From an uncultured Lachnospiraceae bacterium (lineage in GTDB: Bacteria; Bacillota; Clostridia; Lachnospirales; Lachnospiraceae), in contig CAMWFQ010000020.1 in assembly GCA_947173495.1 (NCBI GenBank), positions 1 through 64,000 of the forward strand: a stretch of 64,000 nt of DNA, read 5' to 3'. This document shows positions 23,174 to 33,924 of this stretch, piece after piece. The notes under the pieces were generated by a model. The model was given only the letters and a program-made list of their open reading frames with translations. It did no database searches and had not been told where the DNA came from. Both the position numbers and the translations under genes were made by a program. Each line of letters begins with the position of its first letter. Position 1 is the stretch's first letter.

Positions 23174-23224
23174 ATGGTAAGATGTGTTTTCGGATCATCG
23201 ACAGCAAAAAAGGAAAGGGGAATT

Positions 23225-24154
23225 ATGATCATAACAGTAACCATGAACCCGGCCATTGACAAAACCGTCGAGATAGACACCCTTCACCCCGGAGGCCTGA
23301 ATCGGATCACAAAGGTCAGGTATGACGCCGGAGGAAAAGGCATCAACGTATCCAAAACACTCCGTGAGCTTGGCTGCGAGAGCATTGCCACGGGATTTCT
23401 CTGTGGGAGTACCGGCCGGATGATAGAGGAGGTTCTGGATAAGAAAGGGATACGTCATGATTTTTTGTGGGGAGAGGGAGAAACCAGAACCAATACCAAG
23501 GTTTGCGACAGGAACGGCAGGATCACCGAGTTGAACGAGCCGGGTCCCCTGATGGGGGAAGAGCAGATTAGACAGCTTTTGGAAAAGATCGAAAAATATG
23601 CGGGGAAAGGGACGTTGTTCGTTCTTTCGGGAAGTGTTTCTTCAAATATGGGTAAGGATATTTATGGAAGAATCATTTATCTGGCACATGAAAAAGGAGC
23701 CTCCGTCCTTTTGGATGCGGATGGAGAGCTTTTGAGACAGGGACTGCCGCAAAAACCGGATATCATCAAACCAAACCGGGCAGAGCTGGAGGAATACTGC
23801 GGCAGCAGTTCTTCGATGCCCACAGATAAAATCCTGAAAGCGGCGAGGGAGATACAGAACAAAGGAACAGGAACGGTTCTGGTCTCCATGGGAGAGGAAG
23901 GCGCGCTCCTGGTAAAAGGAAACTATGCGGCGTTTTCTCCGGCATTGTCTGTGGAGGTTCATTCCACCGTAGGAGCAGGAGACGCCATGGCGGCGGCACT
24001 GGCCTGTGCATGGGACAGAGGTCTTTCGGAAGAAGAGACCTTCCGGCTCTGCATGGCTGCTGCGGCAGGAGCAGTCATGACGGTGGGGACCAGGCCGTCG
24101 GAGAGGAAGACTGTAGATGCTTTCATGAAAAAAGTGGTTATTCATAAATTGTAA
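23225..24154 (+). CDS. 1-phosphofructokinase family (PfkB) kinase
   Basis: A 309-residue kinase with ITVTMNPAIDKTVEID at the N-terminus, KVRYDAGGKGINVSKTL, and STVGAGDAMAAAL carrying the catalytic GAGD Asp. These are typical of FruK/LacC enzymes that phosphorylate fructose 1-phosphate or tagatose 6-phosphate. AAAGGGGAA precedes the ATG at 23225. No fructose PTS or DeoR-type regulator is adjacent, so it is an orphan copy; assignment between FruK and LacC is open. Confidence 0.85.
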   Translation: MIITVTMNPAIDKTVEIDTLHPGGLNRITKVRYDAGGKGINVSKTLRELGCESIATGFLCGSTGRMIEEVLDKKGIRHDFLWGEGETRTNTKVCDRNGRITELNEPGPLMGEEQIRQLLEKIEKYAGKGTLFVLSGSVSSNMGKDIYGRIIYLAHEKGASVLLDADGELLRQGLPQKPDIIKPNRAELEEYCGSSSSMPTDKILKAAREIQNKGTGTVLVSMGEEGALLVKGNYAAFSPALSVEVHSTVGAGDAMAAALACAWDRGLSEEETFRLCMAAAAGAVMTVGTRPSERKTVDAFMKKVVIHKL

Positions 24155-26067: not shown

Positions 26068-26971
26068 GAGGATAATCAGATCGCCGTTTTTCTATGTAGG
26101 AGATAAGTATAAGCTGATGTCTCAGCTCAGGAAGCTGATGCCAGAGAAGATCGGACAGTATATAGAACCCTTTGTGGGAGGGGGAAGCTCCTTTCTGAAC
26201 GCCAGGGGGACACGTTATCTGCTGAACGACGTGGACAGCTATGTGATCGAGCTGCACAGACAGATCGGAAGCTATGCGGGCAGGAGGGAGGAGCTCTTTG
26301 CAAAACTGTTCGGGATGATAGAGGATTATAAGCTTTCCTGCTCCTACAGGGGAATCTGTGCACCGGATGAGCTGAAGCGGAAATATGTGAAGACCTATTA
26401 CTCTCATTATAATAAGGAAGCATATCTGAAGCTGAGGAATGACTTTAATCAGAATAAGAAGGATCTTTTGAGACTGTATCTGCTGCTGATCTATGGCTTT
26501 AATCACATGATACGATTTAACAGCGGCGGAGACTTTAACCTGCCGGTGGGAAATGTCGATTTCAACGGCAATGTATATCAGGCGCTGAATGATTATCTGG
26601 ATTTTGCAGAATGCCATGAGACAGAGTTTTTCAACAGGGACTATGTCTCCTTCCTGGAAGAGGTAAGTTTTGAGGAGGAGTCTTATGTGTTTCTGGACCC
26701 GCCCTATCTGATTTCCATGAGCGAATACAATAAGCTGTGGAATGATGAGCGGGAGAATGAGCTGTGCGAATATCTGGATACGCTCAATGATAAGGGGATC
26801 CGGTTCGGAATCACCAATCTGATCACTCATAAGGGCAAGATCAACCAGCGGTTTCTGGACTGGTCCCGGAAATACTTTGCATACGACATAAAGAGCAACT
26901 ACATCAGCTTCAATGACAACACCATCAAGGCTGATTCCAGGGAGGTATTTGTGACCAATTATACCCGGTAA
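26057..26971 (+). CDS. DNA adenine N6-methyltransferase (Dam/DpnM-like), second of the AlwI-type locus
   Basis: A 304-residue Dam-type enzyme: SPFFYVGDKYKLM at the N-terminus, IEPFVGGGSS for AdoMet binding and DPPYLIS with Asp214. Dam-type enzymes methylate GATC-containing sites. The start is probably the GTG at 26057, overlapping the first gene by 11 bp with AGCAGG upstream; ATGs further up lack ribosome sites. Its last 75 bases and the following 22 are repeated at 33828-33924, just before the endonuclease, showing that the two were once adjacent. Confidence 0.88.
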   Translation: MEDERIIRSPFFYVGDKYKLMSQLRKLMPEKIGQYIEPFVGGGSSFLNARGTRYLLNDVDSYVIELHRQIGSYAGRREELFAKLFGMIEDYKLSCSYRGICAPDELKRKYVKTYYSHYNKEAYLKLRNDFNQNKKDLLRLYLLLIYGFNHMIRFNSGGDFNLPVGNVDFNGNVYQALNDYLDFAECHETEFFNRDYVSFLEEVSFEEESYVFLDPPYLISMSEYNKLWNDERENELCEYLDTLNDKGIRFGITNLITHKGKINQRFLDWSRKYFAYDIKSNYISFNDNTIKADSREVFVTNYTR

Positions 26972-26993
26972 AAGAAAAACCCGGAGAAAGCCG
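26897..26993 (+). repeat. Left copy of the 97-bp duplicated methyltransferase/endonuclease junction
   Basis: This stretch matches 33828-33924 without gaps, with 86 of 97 bases identical and all 11 differences transitions. It covers the last 24 codons and stop of the second methyltransferase plus sequence equivalent to the first codons of the AlwI endonuclease. In this copy the endonuclease ATG reads ATA, and the frame continues only about 30 codons before a stop near 27058. Confidence 0.85.
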
Positions 26994-27068: not shown

Positions 27069-28037
27069 CTATATTTGCAGAAGGTTTGCTGCTAACCGAT
27101 AATCAATAATTAATGTATTTGCCAGATTACCTTTAAGAGCAGCCTGGAGAGAGTAAGCTTTATGACTTCCGGATACAACAAGAATTTTATGAGGTATTTT
27201 TCTATAAGTATCCAACTCAATAGCCAGTGTTCTTTTCGCAAGATCTGAGCAACATTCATTTCCATCTGCGTCAAGAAATCTAAGCATTATATCTGTGTAG
27301 GGTCTGCACTTTAGAAGATCACTCAAATTTTGCTCGGACAGGTAGGAGAGCTGCGATAAGGGTGAGGTTAATTCCGGGTAAAAGGAGCCTATGCCGCTGA
27401 CGGAAATAGTTATTTTATTATAGAGAGAAAAATAGTGGGAAATTTCTTCTGATTGTTTTAGGGATTCTAATTCCTTATAGGAAGAAAGCAACCCAGGGAT
27501 AGAAATAGCGAATTTTTCCCCACCATATGCCATGGCAATTCGGCTGACCAGAGAATTAACATCAAACATACTGTTACAGCTGGGAATGGTTCCATGGAGT
27601 GTTATAAAAGTTGTTCCTTTTTTCCGACAGGGATTTAGATATTTGATTAACTCATACATGGTACCGCCCCAGGCGATGCCTAAAAGGTCCCTGGATGTAA
27701 TAATACGTTCCAAATATCGTGCCCCTTCCAGGGCTACAGTGCGTTTGATCTCAAGAGGAGACTGATCATGTGTCAGGTCGGGGGGAACAACAACGATTTC
27801 ATTTAAGTTATACCTTTTTTTGAGGCTGGATTCCAGACATAGACATTCTTTGAATTCTTTTGGCATATCAAAATGTATAATATTCTCCTCCCGGGCTCTT
27901 TTCAAAATTCGGGATACAGTAGGAGGAGATATATTTAGAATCTCAGAAATATCTTTTTGAGAATAGTGATCAATGTAATACATTTTTGCTGCTCTCATTA
28001 CTACACAAATGGATTGATTATAAACTTCACCCTGCAA
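27069..28037 (-). CDS. SorC/DeoR-family sugar-binding transcriptional regulator
   Basis: A 322-residue protein: N-terminal helix-turn-helix (YSQKDISEILNISPPTVSR, about residues 26-45), then a SorC sugar-phosphate-binding domain with GIAWGGTMYELI and a C-terminal VVSGSHKAYSLQAAL, the effector loop. SorC regulators respond to phosphorylated sugars. The start is a TTG at 28037 with AGGAGGGA. It follows the PHP gene by 21 bp on the same strand and diverges from the RuBisCO-like cluster, which it most likely controls. The effector is probably a pathway sugar phosphate, unidentified. Confidence 0.9.
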   Translation of the reverse strand: MQGEVYNQSICVVMRAAKMYYIDHYSQKDISEILNISPPTVSRILKRAREENIIHFDMPKEFKECLCLESSLKKRYNLNEIVVVPPDLTHDQSPLEIKRTVALEGARYLERIITSRDLLGIAWGGTMYELIKYLNPCRKKGTTFITLHGTIPSCNSMFDVNSLVSRIAMAYGGEKFAISIPGLLSSYKELESLKQSEEISHYFSLYNKITISVSGIGSFYPELTSPLSQLSYLSEQNLSDLLKCRPYTDIMLRFLDADGNECCSDLAKRTLAIELDTYRKIPHKILVVSGSHKAYSLQAALKGNLANTLIIDYRLAANLLQI

Positions 28038-28058
28038 ACTAATCCCTCCTTATATCTT

Positions 28059-28892
28059 TCAGAGGCATTGGGATAACGGAATATATTCCGGCTGTCTGTC
28101 TTTGAAAATTGCCAGATAGCGTATACCTGATTCAAGTGCTAAAATAACTGCCTCTCTATAATACTTTCCAATACCTGATGAGATATGTGCATCAGATCCG
28201 AATGTTACATATTCTCCGCCCATTTCGGCATAGCGTTTCAACCATTTACATTCCGGGGCCTGTCTGTTGGGTAAAAGCCATGATGCTGTGTTTATTTCCA
28301 GACATTTACCGTAAGAAATAATTAATTTTATTAATTCGTCAATTTCATCAGAAGCATATTCATATTTGAATTCTTTCCAGAAAAAATCCGGAAAAAAGCG
28401 TAATGCGGGTTTTATTGGGAGGTCAATGTGGCCAACACAATTATACAATGAATTATCAAATATCTTTAAGGATGAGATCAGATTTTGAATATATTCTTTA
28501 CAGAAATCCGGGAAATTCCGATTTTCATAGTGATCGGGGCAAAACAAAGTAACATTATTGATTCTATGGGAGGAAGCAATCACAAAATCAAAAGGATATT
28601 TTTGCAAAAGGTCCACTGTTCTTTGAAGGTCAGAGGAAGAGCATGTAATGCCTGCCTCTGCGCCGGTTTTAATGGCGATCTGAGGATATTTTTCCCGGCA
28701 TTTTTGTATCTGAAAAAAATAAGCATCCAAATCCATCTCCTGATAATTCCATTCAGAAAAGCCCAGCTCTATATGATCTGTAAAGCAAATCTCCTGAATT
28801 TTCTTGTTTATAGCATTGCATATCTGATCATCCATAGATATATGACAGTCAAATGAATGAGAGGAATGTACATGATAATCGGTAGAAAACAT
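28059..28892 (-). CDS. PHP-domain phosphatase (histidinol-phosphatase-like)
   Basis: A 277-residue PHP protein. Metal-binding motifs appear in order: DYHVHSSHS, FTDHIE, GAEAGI, IASSHRI, VGHIDL and FGSDAH. All expected His/Asp/Glu ligands are present. Relatives hydrolyse histidinol phosphate or other small phosphomonoesters. No histidine-biosynthesis gene is nearby; its place beside the SorC regulator, opposite the RuBisCO-like operon, suggests it dephosphorylates an intermediate of that pathway. CAGGAGGT precedes the ATG. Confidence 0.85.
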   Translation of the reverse strand: MFSTDYHVHSSHSFDCHISMDDQICNAINKKIQEICFTDHIELGFSEWNYQEMDLDAYFFQIQKCREKYPQIAIKTGAEAGITCSSSDLQRTVDLLQKYPFDFVIASSHRINNVTLFCPDHYENRNFPDFCKEYIQNLISSLKIFDNSLYNCVGHIDLPIKPALRFFPDFFWKEFKYEYASDEIDELIKLIISYGKCLEINTASWLLPNRQAPECKWLKRYAEMGGEYVTFGSDAHISSGIGKYYREAVILALESGIRYLAIFKDRQPEYIPLSQCL

Positions 28893-28948
28893 AGGAAACC
28901 TCCTGTTTCATTTTTGTAATACTATATCAGTAAAAGGATTCAGGTTGA

Positions 28949-29060
28949 ATATTGAAAATTATTTCTTTAAGAATTATTCAAAATTATCCGCCCGATTTGT
29001 ATAAGTTATATTGAAATTACTTTCCATATATTGAAAAAGATATGCTTTTGATAGTATAAA
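28949..29060 (+). promoter_or_regulatory. Promoter and repeated ATATTGAAA boxes of the RuBisCO-like operon
   Basis: The 228-bp divergent spacer is very AT-rich. ATATTGAAA occurs at 28949-28957, 29008-29016 and 29028-29036; the last two are 20 bp apart. The third copy includes the -35 hexamer TTGAAA (29031-29036), followed after 18 bp by TATAAA (29055-29060). These boxes are candidate SorC sites. On the other strand TATAGT after TTCAAC with 17-bp spacing could serve the PHP-SorC operon. Confidence 0.55.
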
Positions 29061-29120
29061 TACAAGTCAATTCAGATCAAATCATTGTTCAGATGCAATG
29101 ATGAAAAAAGGAGGAATATT

Positions 29121-29960
29121 ATGGCTAAATATTACACAAGGGAAGAAGTTTTAGCAAGGTTTAAGTCGACTATTGCAAAAGGAAGTCCTGTTGTTATTGC
29201 AGGTGCAGGAACGGGAATTTCCGGCAAGTTTGCAGAAAGAGGCGGGGCAGATCTGGTAGGTGTGTACAATTCCGGGCTTTATCGTATGGATGGCAATGGA
29301 TCCCTGGCGGGATTAATGCCATATGGGAATGCAAATGATATCGTGATCCAACTTGCAAACCGTGTATTTCCGCAGATCCAGGAGGCACCAATGATTGCGG
29401 GAATCTGTGGCAGCGATCCGACTCGTGTTATGGAAGCATTTTTAAAAGAGCTGATCGATATTGGATTTTCTGCGGTTATGAATTTTCCTACTGTGGGATT
29501 AATCGACGGAAGATATCGTAAGGAGCTGGAAGATACAGGCATGGGCTATGGAAAGGAAATTGAGACGCTGGTAAAAGCGAAAAAAATGGGGCTTTTTACG
29601 ATTGGCTATGCATTTAATGAGGAAGAGGCTGCAATGGTTGGGGAAGCAGGTCTTGATGTAATGATCTGCCATATGGGACTTACTACTGGCGGTGCGATCG
29701 GTTCCAAATATTCGGAGGAAGTATCTCTTGAAAAATGTGCAGAACTGATCAATCGGATGACGAAAGCTGCCAGAAAAGGAAATCCGGATATCATGATTTT
29801 TGCACATGGCGGCCCTATTTCCGGTCCTGAGGATACGGCGTTTATTTACAAAAACACGGAATCTGTGGGATTCCTTGGAGCCTCCAGTATTGAAAGAATA
29901 CCAGTTGAACGACCTCTGGAAAATGCAGTAAAGGATTTCAAAGCCCAGAAGATCAGGTAA
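29121..29960 (+). CDS. PEP-hydrolase-family TIM-barrel protein (TBS domain), copy 1
   Basis: A 279-residue TIM-barrel protein of the family annotated as phosphoenolpyruvate hydrolase or TIM-barrel signal transduction. Hallmarks are VIAGAGTGISGKFAERGGAD, VGVYNSGLYRMDG, IAGICGSDPT, VMNFPTVGLIDG and IFAHGGPISGPED. The same domain is the C-terminal half of plant Tm-1, whose N-terminal half resembles the next gene. AAAGGAGGAA precedes the ATG. It is first of four plus-strand genes. The true reaction is not established; a role on a 3-carbon or acyl-type intermediate is only a guess. Confidence 0.85.
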   Translation: MAKYYTREEVLARFKSTIAKGSPVVIAGAGTGISGKFAERGGADLVGVYNSGLYRMDGNGSLAGLMPYGNANDIVIQLANRVFPQIQEAPMIAGICGSDPTRVMEAFLKELIDIGFSAVMNFPTVGLIDGRYRKELEDTGMGYGKEIETLVKAKKMGLFTIGYAFNEEEAAMVGEAGLDVMICHMGLTTGGAIGSKYSEEVSLEKCAELINRMTKAARKGNPDIMIFAHGGPISGPEDTAFIYKNTESVGFLGASSIERIPVERPLENAVKDFKAQKIR

Positions 29961-30043
29961 ACGGAATTCGAAATTAAAATCTGTGGCGCATCTTGTAGAA
30001 AATGGGATACGCCATGGATAACTATCATAATTTGGAGGTGTTT

Positions 30044-31378
30044 ATGGGAAAGAAAATTATTTGCGCAGGCATTCTGGATACAAAGGGCGAAGAGATTAAA
30101 TATATTGCGGAACAGGTAAAGGCAGCAGGCGGAGATCCGGTAATTATGGAACTCAGTGTTGGAAAAGAAGTGGGATGGGCAGATATTGGATTGGGAAAAA
30201 TTCTTGCACTGACAGGGAAAGTGCCTGCGGACTTATTTGCAGTTGACCGCCACAAGGCGGCGGCCTGGGTTACAGAGGCAGCTGTTCAATATGTTGCTGA
30301 ACTTTATCAAAAAGGGGAACTGGATGGCATCATCAGCTATGGAGGATCTATGGGAGCGGCAATTTCTTCGGCCGTAATGCAGTCTCTTCCTTTAGGAGTT
30401 CCAAAACTTTTATTGACGACAATGGCATCGGGTGATGTCAGGCCCTACATTGGAACAAAAGACATGTGTATTATGTATCCAATTGCCGAAGCCGGTTTAA
30501 ATGGTCTTACAAAACAGATTTTAACGAATGCAGCATACAGCATTACCGGGATGGCGAATGCCCCTGTAATTCCAACAGAAGACAGCAGGCCGTTGATTGG
30601 ATGTATGATGTTTGGAGTGACGACACCAAATGTTCTCAGGGGTGCGGCGTTTATGGAGAGCAAGGGATATGATGTGATTATTAATCATGCAATAGGTACC
30701 GGAGGAATGTCGATGGAGGAAATGATATCCGATGGATATGTAAAAGGAATTCTGGATATCACAACTCATGAAATTGCGGATGAAATGTTTGGTGGTGTTT
30801 TGTCTGCCGGCCCTGACCGCCTGACTGCAGCATCTGCGAAAGGAATTCCACAGGTGATTGCACCGGGAGGATTGGATCTGTTGAATTTTGGCGCTCTTGA
30901 TACAGTACCGGAACATTACATGGAAGATGTAAAAAATAATGTCAGGAAATTATATGAGCATAATACCAGCGTGACCTGTGTCAGTGTGACCTCTGAGGAG
31001 GCCTATAAAATTGCACTGAATATGGCTGAAAAGATAAATAGGACGAAAGGTCCTACGGCATTATGTATTCCGATGAAAGGATGGGGGGCCTGTGATATTG
31101 GAGCACCCAATAAGGAGCTTGGATGGGCAGGACCTGGTGAAGGCCCTTCATGGATACCCGATCCTGAAAAAGCGGAATGGTCCTTTAGAAGCAAACGATA
31201 TATTGATGGCATTAAAGAAAAGATTGATCTGGATAATCCTGATATTGAGATCCTGATCGCTGATTATCACATGAATGAACCTGAGTTTTCAGATTTAATG
31301 TCAGGTATTTTGAACGACATGCTGAATGGAACCTGGGTGAAAGGTAAGAATTATGGAGATAAAGTCTGTTTGCTCTAG
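30044..31378 (+). CDS. Tm-1-like ATP-binding protein (UPF0261)
   Basis: A 444-residue UPF0261 protein. It begins KIICAGILDTKGEEIKYI, and has ISYGGSMGAA, TTMASGDVRPY, GCMMFGVTTPNV and VIAPGGLDLLNFG. The family binds ATP and is fused to a TBS domain in tomato Tm-1; in bacteria the two are usually adjacent, as here. TTTGGAGGTG precedes the ATG at 30044. It sits between two TBS paralogues, so it may form alternative complexes with each. No biochemical function is assigned; ATP-dependent activation of a metabolite is one possibility. Confidence 0.87.
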   Translation: MGKKIICAGILDTKGEEIKYIAEQVKAAGGDPVIMELSVGKEVGWADIGLGKILALTGKVPADLFAVDRHKAAAWVTEAAVQYVAELYQKGELDGIISYGGSMGAAISSAVMQSLPLGVPKLLLTTMASGDVRPYIGTKDMCIMYPIAEAGLNGLTKQILTNAAYSITGMANAPVIPTEDSRPLIGCMMFGVTTPNVLRGAAFMESKGYDVIINHAIGTGGMSMEEMISDGYVKGILDITTHEIADEMFGGVLSAGPDRLTAASAKGIPQVIAPGGLDLLNFGALDTVPEHYMEDVKNNVRKLYEHNTSVTCVSVTSEEAYKIALNMAEKINRTKGPTALCIPMKGWGACDIGAPNKELGWAGPGEGPSWIPDPEKAEWSFRSKRYIDGIKEKIDLDNPDIEILIADYHMNEPEFSDLMSGILNDMLNGTWVKGKNYGDKVCLL

Positions 31379-31391
31379 GGAGGTAGAAACT

Positions 31392-32222
31392 ATGAAATTT
31401 AACAGGCAGGAGATTTTGAGCCGTCTAAGAAATCAGGTGGAGCAGAAGAAAGCAATATTGATGTTTGGCGCAGGGACAGGGCTGACAGCAAAATGTGCGG
31501 AGGCGGGAGGAGCGGATCTGATAGGTATATATTCAACTGCAATTTTCCGGATGCAGGGTTTTCCCTCTATTCTTGCATGGCTTCCATATGGCGATTGCAA
31601 TGAGCACATGTTCCGTATGGCAAAAAATATCTTGCCAATGGTGAAGGAAACACCTTGCATTGCCGGGGTAGGTGCACATCATCCGGGGATAGATTTTGAA
31701 AGAACCATAGACAGACTGCAGAGATTAGGATTTTCGGGAGTAAATAATGAGCCTTTTTCCGGATTGTATGGAGAGTTTTTCTCTTCACAGCTTGAGAGAG
31801 CAGGCGTAGGATTTTCACGGGAGGTAGAACTGATTCGTTGTGCCAGAAAAAGAGAATTCTTTTCCGTTGCATGGACTATGTCGGCAGAAGAATCGGCAAG
31901 GATGTCAGCAGCAGGAGCGGATATCATTGGCGCTATGATAGGTGTAACCAGTGGTGGAATTTCTGGATCGAAGGTGGTAATGTCACTGGAGAAAGCAGTA
32001 GAAGAAGTACAAAAAATGGTCGAAGCTGCAAAAAGGGAGAATCCTGAAGTTATGATATTGACGCACGGAGGTCCTTTTGCAGATCCTGTAACAGCTGAAT
32101 ATTCTCTCAAAAATTCAGGAGCCGTAGGGTATGCGTCCGGCTCAAGCGGTGAGAGAGTGCCTACAGAAGAGGCAGTGATAACCGTCACCAAAAAATATAA
32201 AGATATGAAGATATGTATCTGA
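31392..32222 (+). CDS. PEP-hydrolase-family TIM-barrel protein (TBS domain), copy 2
   Basis: A 276-residue paralogue of the protein at 29121. It shares FGAGTGLTAKCAEAGGAD, LIGIYSTAIFRMQG, VNNEPFSGLYG, GVTSGGISGSK and ILTHGGPFADP, and has the same length. Differences at several loops (CGSDPTR versus GAHHPGID; HMGLTTGG versus MIGVTSGG) suggest the two copies act on different ligands or that one is structural. GGGAGGT precedes the ATG, 13 bp after the UPF0261 stop, which implies close co-expression. Confidence 0.85.
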   Translation: MKFNRQEILSRLRNQVEQKKAILMFGAGTGLTAKCAEAGGADLIGIYSTAIFRMQGFPSILAWLPYGDCNEHMFRMAKNILPMVKETPCIAGVGAHHPGIDFERTIDRLQRLGFSGVNNEPFSGLYGEFFSSQLERAGVGFSREVELIRCARKREFFSVAWTMSAEESARMSAAGADIIGAMIGVTSGGISGSKVVMSLEKAVEEVQKMVEAAKRENPEVMILTHGGPFADPVTAEYSLKNSGAVGYASGSSGERVPTEEAVITVTKKYKDMKICI

Positions 32223-32278
32223 TTGTCTGACTTATGATGTATATACTGTAAACAAAAAATTGATTAAAGGAGACATGC

Positions 32279-33598
32279 ATGTATATTGATCCGATTGTTG
32301 TTCAGTACCCGGAGGCATTAGAGGCCGACCGATTTGTTATAGCAACTTATTATTGTGGAACACCGGTTAAAACGAATGCATTAAAATTTGGAGCTGCACT
32401 GGCAGTTGAGCAGACGTGTGGAACATGGATAAAAGTTCCGGGGGAAACACCGGAAGTGAGGGAGAGGTCTATCGGACGCGTGATAGGAGTTTACGAGACT
32501 CCGGCATACCAGATTGGTGTACCTGAAAATGTAACGGAAAGACACTTCATTATCCGTATTGCCTATCCGGCGGCGAATTTCGGGGCATCCATGGCGATGC
32601 TGTTATCTACAGTGATTGGAAATATCTCTTCTTCCGGAAAAGTAAAATTACTTGATCTTGAATTCCCTGAGAGTTATCTAAAGGAATTTAAAGGGCCCAA
32701 ATTTGGTGTACAGGGTATTCGAGATATTTTAGGAGTTTATGACAGGCCGTTATTAAATAACATGATTAAACCATGTACGGGGCTTGATCCACAGAAAACA
32801 GCAGAGCTTGCTTATGAAGCAGCGGTCGGAGGAGTCGATGTTATTAAGGATGATGAATTGGTAAGTAATCCTCCCCATTGCCCGTTGATTGACCGTGTAA
32901 AAGCAGTCATGCCTGCGATTCAGGAGGCTGATAAGGTTAAAGGAGAAAAGACCTTATATGCATTTAATATTACAGACAGAACTGAGAATTTGAAGAAGAA
33001 CGCCCTGGCAGTTATGGAAAATGGAGGAAACGCCCTGCTTGTCAATTATAATACGATAGGGCTGGATGCTGCCAGAATGTTGGCAGATGATCCGGAGATT
33101 AATGTTCCTATCCTTGCGCATTCAGATTATACTGGTGCTGTGTACGAATCGCCGTGGTCAGGTCTTAGTATTAACTTAATTGGAGCTACACTTCCAAGAC
33201 TTGCAGGATTGGATATGATTATAACCCTTTCTCCATATGGGAAGTTCCCTATGTCGATGGATTCTTTTATATCGGCAGGGTACAAGATGCTTCAGCCCCT
33301 CGGACATATTAAGCCGGTCTTTGCAATGCCGGGAGGGGGAACAACGCAGGGGCATATTGAGGATATTATTGATAAATTCGGAGTAGATGTTATGATTGCT
33401 GCCGGCGGCGCTATCCATGGACATCCAATGGGACCGGCAGCTGGTGCCAGAGCATTTCGCCAGGGAATTGACGCTGTTATGAAAGGGAAAACGCTTCAGG
33501 AGGCTAAGGCGGATTATGAGGAACTTCGCGCAGCTCTTGATCTGTGGGGCATTTATGGTGAAGAAAAAGCAAATAAAAATTATGATTTAAAAGGATAA
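32279..33598 (+). CDS. RuBisCO-like protein (form IV-type), non-carboxylating
   Basis: A 439-residue RuBisCO large-subunit homologue. By eye against spinach RuBisCO: Glu60 corresponds to Glu44 (AVEQTCGTW), Asn123 to Asn115, Lys175 to Lys164 (MIKPCTGL) and the metal-site Lys201-Asp203-Glu204 to Lys190-Asp192-Glu193 (VIKDDE). Lys177 is replaced by Cys166, Arg295 by Ser282 and Ser379 by Pro351 (MPGGG), while AAGGAIHGHPMG keeps the phosphate-site glycines. The metal site is intact but carboxylation residues are lost, so it is an enolase, isomerase or decarboxylase-type RLP. AAAGGAG precedes the ATG. It ends a four-gene operon closed by a terminator at 33624. Confidence 0.9.
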   Translation: MYIDPIVVQYPEALEADRFVIATYYCGTPVKTNALKFGAALAVEQTCGTWIKVPGETPEVRERSIGRVIGVYETPAYQIGVPENVTERHFIIRIAYPAANFGASMAMLLSTVIGNISSSGKVKLLDLEFPESYLKEFKGPKFGVQGIRDILGVYDRPLLNNMIKPCTGLDPQKTAELAYEAAVGGVDVIKDDELVSNPPHCPLIDRVKAVMPAIQEADKVKGEKTLYAFNITDRTENLKKNALAVMENGGNALLVNYNTIGLDAARMLADDPEINVPILAHSDYTGAVYESPWSGLSINLIGATLPRLAGLDMIITLSPYGKFPMSMDSFISAGYKMLQPLGHIKPVFAMPGGGTTQGHIEDIIDKFGVDVMIAAGGAIHGHPMGPAAGARAFRQGIDAVMKGKTLQEAKADYEELRAALDLWGIYGEEKANKNYDLKG

Positions 33599-33623
33599 TT
33601 GAAAGATCCCAAAAAAGAATTTC

Positions 33624-33656
33624 CCCCACCGCAATCAGATAATGCGGTGGGGATTT
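33624..33656 (+). terminator. Terminator of the RuBisCO-like operon
   Basis: A perfect 10-bp stem (CCCCACCGCA at 33624-33633, TGCGGTGGGG at 33643-33652) with a 9-base loop, followed by ATTTTGC. The T-tract is short but the stem is strong, 26 bp after the stop codon. Confidence 0.75.
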
Positions 33657-33662
33657 TGCATT

Positions 33663-33746
33663 GTACACGAACACCCGGATGAAATATGGCAGCAGAGCTG
33701 ACGGGCGCCCGGCGCGCGAGCAGGGGAAAAATCGTTCCCCTGCTCA
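33663..33746 (+). repeat. Dispersed structured repeat, copy A
   Basis: Two successive hairpins. The first has ACCCGG...CGGG pairing around an inner CAGC-AGA-GCTG. The second is a perfect 9-bp stem, GAGCAGGGG (33718-33726) and CCCCTGCTC (33737-33745). Between them lies the conserved GGCGCGCGAG. Much of it matches the copy at 54703-54788 and its architecture matches 62321-62402. No reading frame is apparent. Confidence 0.7.
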
Positions 33747-33765: not shown

Positions 33766-33794
33766 TTGGCAAATACTTCAAGTTACAATATAAT
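33766..33794 (+). promoter_or_regulatory. Promoter for the AlwI-type endonuclease
   Basis: TTGGCA (33766-33771), a 17-bp spacer and a perfect TATAAT (33789-33794). It lies about 100 bp before the endonuclease start and just before the duplicated methyltransferase tail, so the endonuclease is now expressed separately from the methyltransferases. Confidence 0.75.
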
Positions 33795-33827: not shown

Positions 33828-33924
33828 AATTATATCAGCTTCAATGATAATACCATCGAGGCTGATTCCAGGGAGGTGTTTGTAACCAGTTATGCCCGGT
33901 AAAAGAAAAGCCCAGAGAAAGCCG
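33828..33924 (+). repeat. Right copy of the 97-bp duplicated methyltransferase/endonuclease junction
   Basis: Encodes NYISFNDNTIEADSREVFVT and the stop of a methyltransferase almost identical to that ending at 26971, but with no body in front: the frame is not open further upstream in recognisable sequence. Changes from the left copy (Lys to Glu, Asn to Ser, Thr to Ala, otherwise mostly silent) suggest it came from a related allele rather than a fresh duplication. It overlaps the endonuclease start in ATGCCCGGTAA. Confidence 0.85.

Follow-up and report, generated by a model that had tools for sequence, protein, structure and literature searches.

A form IV RuBisCO-like protein encoded beside a probable Tm-1-type kinase: a candidate pathway in an uncultured Lachnospiraceae bacterium

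To our knowledge, many form IV clades of the RuBisCO family have no proven function, and Tm-1-like proteins, named after the virus-resistance protein Tm-1 of tomato, are not known to us to have a metabolic role. What, then, could a RuBisCO-like protein (RLP) do when it is encoded together with Tm-1-like proteins? In this study, we analyzed such a cluster in a stretch of 64,000 nucleotides (the window) from contig CAMWFQ010000020.1 of an uncultured Lachnospiraceae bacterium. The answer proposed here joins the RLP to a probable kinase of the UPF0261 (Tm-1-like) family. The cluster consists of six open reading frames (ORFs) at 27069-33598, with SorC and PHP on the minus strand and TBS1, UPF0261, TBS2 and RLP on the plus strand. 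The initial annotation, made from the letters alone, had named all six ORFs with the right coordinates, and all their Pfam matches were above cut-off; the divergent layout around one common control region that it described was also borne out. The elements are as follows.

27069-28037, minus strand: SorC/DeoR-type sugar-responsive transcription regulator (Pfam Sugar-bind, 173.9 bits; several helix-turn-helix families)
28059-28892, minus strand: PHP-domain phosphatase, HisJ-like subfamily (Pfam PHP, 91.9 bits; NCBIfam TIGR01856, 126.7 bits against a cut-off of 90.2)
28893-29120, no strand: divergent control region of 228 bases, in which ATATTGAAA words recur as possible operators
29121-29960, plus strand: TBS1, a PF09370 TIM barrel (Pfam, 364.4 bits; cut-off 33.8)
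30044-31378, plus strand: UPF0261 (Tm-1-like) protein, probable ATP-dependent kinase (Pfam N-terminal part 157.5 and C-terminal part 211.9 bits; cut-off 27)
31392-32222, plus strand: TBS2, second PF09370 paralogue (Pfam, 306.5 bits; cut-off 33.8)
32279-33598, plus strand: form IV RLP whose clade is distinct from MtnW and OiaX (RuBisCO_large 173.0 and RuBisCO_large_N 39.5 bits; NCBIfam, trees and active-site tables)
33624-33652, plus strand: terminator-like hairpin 3' of the RLP gene (10 pairs, then ATTTT; -20.8 kcal/mol on folding of 33610-33665)

Alternative open starts were present at 30002 for UPF0261 and at 31353 for TBS2. A search for SorC operator palindromes gave weak candidates only. 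The hairpin was absent from a consensus terminator scan, whose loop limit is 8.

The window UPF0261 protein was homologous to Tm-1 (PDB 3wry) and to Saro_1862 (PDB 9mpy; E 2.9e-55, 343 residues matched), which according to the structure title is a UPF0261 domain protein of Novosphingobium aromaticivorans with acetovanillone bound. One report describes the first enzyme of the acetovanillone pathway in this organism as a single-component kinase, MarK (PMC13101465). Judging from the organism and the substrate, MarK is probably Saro_1862. HpeHI was also considered as a UPF0261 kinase and was rejected, since it is described as a dikinase that depends on ATP and includes an ATP-grasp portion (PMC12167813); the kinase reading is therefore backed by the Novosphingobium protein only. 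In the UPF0261 tree, the RLP-linked proteins came together in a single clade (support 99; 32 of 33 rows). In a sample of 299 genomes of the family, the window's own included, six of the seven RLP-adjacent UPF0261 ORFs were 451-499 residues long (the seventh was 417), and the remaining 17 were 318-440 residues long. The AlphaFold2 model of the window protein had a mean pLDDT of 85.6; apart from Tm-1 and 9mpy, its Foldseek matches were weak (glycosyltransferase and 2-epimerase folds, TM score about 0.2). The window UPF0261 protein is probably an ATP-dependent kinase. The statement of the initial annotation that no kinase is present is probably wrong, given the homology to 9mpy and the exclusion of FGGY, phosphotransferase system (PTS) and DUF1537 genes described below.

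We then asked to which form IV clade the RLP belongs. Its scores were 307.5 bits for the MtnW model TIGR03332 (513.6 needed), 356.3 bits for the MtnW model NF007095 (409 needed) and 226 bits for the NCBIfam OiaX model (700 needed). In the RLP tree with references, which has some weak deep branches and a warning of long branches, four MtnW references formed their own clade (support 100) outside the clade of the window RLP and its closer relatives (the focal clade). The branch uniting the focal group and a group at about 40% identity without MtnW had a support of 78, and OiaX formed a separate clade with DUF1537-linked RLPs (support 98), into which a Streptomyces row (L162) also fell. No mtn genes were found among the Pfam-scanned neighbors of the window RLP. 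Methionine-salvage MtnW was rejected on the sub-cut-off scores and the separate clade, and OiaX was rejected in the same way.

Active-site residues were mapped by motif onto a form I sequence; in rubisco, the residues concerned make up the catalytic set, the site of the C5 or second phosphate, and the E60-K334 pair at the CO2 site. The window RLP had the full catalytic set (E60, N123, K175, K201, D203, E204, H294 and K334) and had lost the second phosphate site (R295 to S, H298 to T, H327 to I and S379 to G), with K177 replaced by C. Across 86 focal RLPs (54 near relatives and two groups of 15 and 17 at about 50% identity), E60, K175, K201, D203, E204, H294 and K334 were conserved in all and N123 in 85. 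K177 was C, and R295, H298 and H327 were replaced, in 86/86; S379 was kept only in the 17 archaeal or Anaerolineae-type rows, with one gap elsewhere. E60, N123 and K334 were lost in all four MtnW references, and K334 was R in four of four transketolase-linked RLPs. In the group at about 40% identity (L033, L035, L038, L039, L040, L042, L043 and L044), E60 and K334 were lost in 8/8, and genes resembling triosephosphate isomerase and RpiB were found at seven of the eight loci, not at L044. Because the catalytic residues are kept and the second phosphate site is lost, the pattern in the focal RLPs fits a substrate with a single phosphate, at the C1 end. E60 and K334, which are kept here but gone in MtnW, hint at a step involving CO2 or a carboxylate.

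The relationship between RLP and UPF0261 was investigated across genomes. RLP was found in 22 and UPF0261 in 21 of the 299 family genomes, and both in 11, compared to 1.5 expected (hypergeometric P 4.9e-9, kinship uncorrected). The two genes lay within about 5 kb of each other in seven of these 11 genomes and apart in four. Three of the close pairs involved the 40%-identical RLPs of L038, L042 and L044, with amidohydrolase, TBS and UPF0261 genes; L042 and L044 had an additional metallo-beta-lactamase gene. In the source genome (4.58 Mb draft, 52 contigs), the sole RLP, the sole UPF0261 and both PF09370 matches were all in the window cluster. Among 37 genomes from the genus, an RLP match was confined to that of the window; the cluster is thus patchy and was probably acquired. 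The association of RLP with UPF0261 is real and above chance. The initial annotation had proposed placing the RLP in a form IV tree and searching for RLP, UPF0261 and PF09370 together in other genomes. The RLP lies outside both proven clades examined, MtnW and OiaX, and the genes do occur together elsewhere.

A wider locus set comprised the best 80 of 435 RLP relatives, which gave 79 distinct loci and represents the nearest fifth of the relatives. Lachnospiraceae, Eubacterium, Syntrophomonas, Ca. Formimonas, archaea and others were represented. With the window added, TBS or UPF0261 was present at 31 loci, and the order RLP-TBS-(ComB)-UPF-TBS was found at 22 of these, in Clostridia and Syntrophomonas-type genomes; the order TBS-UPF-TBS followed by RLP was seen in the window and two other loci. 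The Syntrophomonas-type loci carried a ComB-type phosphatase gene in place of PHP. One locus, L168 (genome G085), had six TBS and two UPF0261 genes clustered, and the 19 kb covered there contained no RLP. In the open-access literature, with subscription papers mostly outside the search, no paper joined RLP with Tm-1-like or RuBisCO-like with UPF0261, and among the nine papers combining any two of RLP, glycerol-1-phosphate dehydrogenase, FGGY and xylulokinase, none contained the RLP term. A pathway of an RLP and a probable Tm-1-type kinase in anaerobic bacteria seems to be undescribed.

Relatives of the window RLP had other partners. Neighboring genes were counted by a six-frame hidden Markov model search with profiles built from clusters of the same loci (DUF1537 from one sequence); its kinase and transport profiles were FGGY, PTS IIC and DUF1537 only. 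The further partners at FGGY and PTS loci were assigned by scans of representative loci. Many relatives were linked to an FGGY kinase with a GlpA-type FAD dehydrogenase, GlpB and DUF1667. At other FGGY-type loci, the partners were either a class III aminotransferase or an AraM-type glycerol-1-phosphate dehydrogenase together with a HAD phosphatase. At the PTS-type loci, a galactitol-type PTS was accompanied by a Zn dehydrogenase or by GlpABC-type genes, and at some also by a class II aldolase. CHOH-CH2OP groups are the targets of GlpA, GlpABC and AraM enzymes, which would convert them to the 1-phospho-2-oxo head that is common to known RLP substrates. Autoinducer-2 processing (LsrK/LsrR) was considered for the FGGY loci and rejected, since the three linked FGGY kinases scanned were nearest to XylB, all below the XylB cut-off (the kinase of L028 had 362.2 of the 380.25 bits needed). 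Two near-identical RLP genes (L062 and L066) shared one locus, where FGGY and GlpA-type genes were also present. An FGGY kinase and a class III aminotransferase accompanied RLP in Baldrarchaeota, Thermoflexia, Thermoflexus, Thermoflexales, Chloroflexi and Anaerolineae loci (L105, L108, L109, L114, L118, L119, L120 and L124), whose RLPs keep S379; L105 also had a HisC-like gene. In L031 (G239), a divergent SorC/RLP pair lay near DUF1537 (D-threonate-kinase-like), PdxA, TIM-like and RpiB-like genes, and this is likely a tetronate pathway with an RLP.

These partner modules did not mix. The focal and 40% groups comprised 102 RLP genes, and for the 89 that were flanked on either side by 2 kb or more, neighbors within 8 kb were examined: TBS/UPF was near 31, FGGY, PTS or DUF1537 near 47, neither near 11, and both near 0 (Fisher P 5e-15, kinship ignored). 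The count contains one locus twice (L029 and L075 are the same) and four loci with two RLP genes each; the 13 genes dropped from it comprised six with TBS/UPF, one with FGGY, one with PTS and five with neither.

The ancestry of the window cluster looked mixed. The window RLP fell inside an FGGY/AraM-type group of 13 rows (support 99), of which eight were FGGY-type, four had neither module, and the only TBS-UPF member was the window itself. In a careful RLP tree, it paired with L049-L051 (support 100/93). Grouping it with the TBS-UPF loci L056, L057, L063, L070 and L089, a clade picked after the trees had been seen, was rejected (p-AU 4e-9, approximately unbiased test). The window UPF0261, in contrast, grouped with these same five loci (support 97). 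By path, they were also the closest loci for SorC and PHP of the window, which stood on long branches outside any starred group; the closest SorC genes were those of L089, L063 and L070. The window RLP looks to be of FGGY lineage, exchanged beside a TBS-UPF module. For such a combination, the simplest reading is that the TBS/UPF and FGGY modules would be interchangeable and both serve one RLP reaction.

The role of the two TBS proteins was considered from their fold and neighbors. TBS1 matched PDB 2p10 with E 5.4e-87, and its model gave 2p10 as the top Foldseek match (TM score about 0.9), then phosphoenolpyruvate mutase and methylisocitrate lyase (0.54-0.59), with other TIM barrels close behind. 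TBS2 was 36% identical to TBS1. As the alignment showed an invariant core common to both, both may be active. In the family sample, the neighbor within 1.5 kb on either side of UPF0261 was TBS at 15 of 24 loci, class II aldolase at eight, neither at one and both at none. The aldolase loci (L137, L138, L140, L141, L142, L144, L145 and L153) represent a second common arrangement. Together, the fold and the alternation of aldolase with TBS suggest that TBS could be a C-C lyase partner of the kinase.

From these data, the cluster would be a small catabolic branch. UPF0261 would transfer phosphate from ATP to a hydroxyl group on a small metabolite, and TBS1 and TBS2 would act as lyase or mutase partners that cleave or rearrange it. 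The substrate of the RLP would carry a single phosphate, in a 1-phospho-2-oxo head (R-CO-CH2-OPO3), and the RLP would enolise it by means of K175, carbamylated K201 and Mg2+, in a step that would handle CO2 or a carboxylate, most likely an OiaX-like decarboxylation to a ketose 1-phosphate. The PHP phosphatase, replaced elsewhere by ComB, would remove the phosphate, and SorC would sense a sugar phosphate. In relatives, the substrate would reach the RLP through an FGGY kinase and a dehydrogenase of GlpA or AraM type, or through a gat-type PTS plus either a Zn dehydrogenase or GlpABC. We infer kinase activity, TBS roles, RLP reaction and step order from the observed gene content, co-occurrence, exclusion, trees and residues. 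The complete scheme of kinase, lyase or mutase partners, RLP decarboxylase and phosphatase is tentative, with a chance of being right that falls a little short of even; we are more confident of the kinase role of UPF0261 than of the RLP reaction. The proposal in the initial annotation of a phosphorylated-metabolite pathway is supported in outline, and the branched or carboxylated sugar phosphate suggested there may be a candidate substrate.

Several observations weigh against this scheme. The exclusion between modules weakened when kinship was considered: among seven independent pairs (starred branches), none went in the same direction and 4.6 on average in the opposite one (median p 0.06, range 0.03-0.5), and for FGGY alone against TBS/UPF the opposite pairs numbered 2.8 (median p 0.25). 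The 11 of 89 RLP genes with neither module fit it poorly, and kinases outside the three families covered may accompany RLPs. The window has a PfkB-family sugar kinase gene at 23174-24154, separated from the cluster by 2.9 kb and other genes, as well as an FGGY-like match at a distance of 18 kb. The UPF0261 model reached TM scores of only 0.41-0.48 over the whole chain with Tm-1 and 9mpy, and Foldseek found no kinase fold beyond these two. The substrates of MarK are phenols, not sugars. For the RLP step, GlpABC and PTS as partners point to alditols that are not acids, and these would fit an isomerase better than a decarboxylase, and the RLPs near TIM/RpiB-like isomerases in the 40% group are without E60 and K334.

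The RLP might instead isomerise or epimerise a ketose 1-phosphate, by enolisation and reprotonation at C3. Its substrate would come from a kinase and a dehydrogenase or from UPF0261, and a class II aldolase or TBS would cleave the product. Class II aldolase genes lie 3' of RLP in L085-L087 and L091, where a gat-type PTS lies upstream, at some of these loci along with a Zn dehydrogenase; GlpABC-type genes near other RLPs suit alditol breakdown, and in L164 a short RLP lies beside mtnK, mtnA and a split transketolase. This explanation is less likely than the decarboxylase scheme, since E60 and K334 are kept throughout the focal RLPs yet lost in MtnW, and the transketolase-linked RLPs have R in place of K334. 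The retention of the enolisation and CO2 residues (86/86; N123 in 85) with loss of the C5-phosphate site could also mean a true carboxylase in anaerobes, converting a ketose 1-monophosphate to 3-phosphoglycerate and a sugar acid. This would be the rubisco reaction minus the second phosphate, with the substrate phosphorylated by UPF0261 in TBS-UPF loci, so that kinase, carboxylase and phosphatase would follow one another like those of the Hpe pathway; we regard this as quite improbable.

It could also be argued that UPF0261 and TBS stand outside the RLP pathway and are adjacent through common regulation or mobility, as UPF0261-TBS pairs exist without an adjoining RLP and the genes are apart in four of the 11 family genomes that have both. 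The conserved order at 22 of 31 TBS/UPF loci across Clostridia and Syntrophomonas-type genomes, the single clade of RLP-linked UPF0261 and the exclusion of kinase and PTS genes make this improbable. The slightest chance is given to an MtnW-like enolase of methionine salvage, with PHP or ComB replacing the MtnX phosphatase. The top NCBIfam match and the top PDB matches are MtnW, and a phosphatase gene is linked; however, the score is under both MtnW cut-offs, the MtnW references stand apart, E60, N123 and K334 differ, and the scanned neighbors lack mtn genes. We retain the decarboxylase scheme with its proposed UPF0261 kinase.

The surroundings of the cluster were also examined. It sits within an AlwI-type restriction-modification operon, between the second methyltransferase and the endonuclease genes. 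Direct repeats of 97 bases flank it (26897-26993 and 33828-33924, 89% identical) and correspond to the 3' end of a D12 methyltransferase gene. A strong sigma-70-like promoter match (11/12) was found at 33766-33794, between the RLP terminator and the endonuclease gene. In genome G076 (L203), two methyltransferase genes and an endonuclease gene that resemble the window's by eye are contiguous. G038 has a more distant endonuclease (36%), and among its ORFs of at least 150 residues such methyltransferases were not beside it.

The cluster ties a form IV RLP to Tm-1-like proteins and leads us to propose kinase activity for UPF0261, which, if true, would give Tm-1-like proteins a metabolic role. The enzyme set is small enough for in vitro rebuilding. 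If the RLP does handle CO2, it would bear on the evolution of rubisco from or into other chemistry.

Among known systems, OiaX (3-oxo-isoapionate-4-phosphate decarboxylase in the NCBIfam naming, of apionate pathways) is likewise an RLP linked to a kinase gene and keeps K334 and the metal and carbamate residues. Its kinase partner is DUF1537, whereas that of the window cluster would be UPF0261, and the window RLP is far under its cut-off in a separate clade. MtnW (2,3-diketo-5-methylthiopentyl-1-phosphate enolase) is the nearest curated family and has the nearest solved structures, and the window also has an adjoining phosphatase; the window RLP lies outside its clade and keeps the E60, N123 and K334 that MtnW lost. 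Tomato Tm-1 consists of UPF0261 and TBS domains, and Tm-1-like proteins are widespread in land plants, according to PMC5028733. The two halves match the families of the window proteins, which are separate, include two TBS and are linked to an RLP. Saro_1862 is a UPF0261 protein like that of the window, but it has an acetovanillone ligand, a shorter chain of 406 residues and another pathway. In the Hpe/Acv acetovanillone pathway, a kinase is followed by a biotin-dependent carboxylase that requires the phosphorylated substrate and then by a phosphatase, as described in PMC9618137. Where that pathway employs an ATP-dependent dikinase and a biotin carboxylase, the window cluster has UPF0261 and an RLP.

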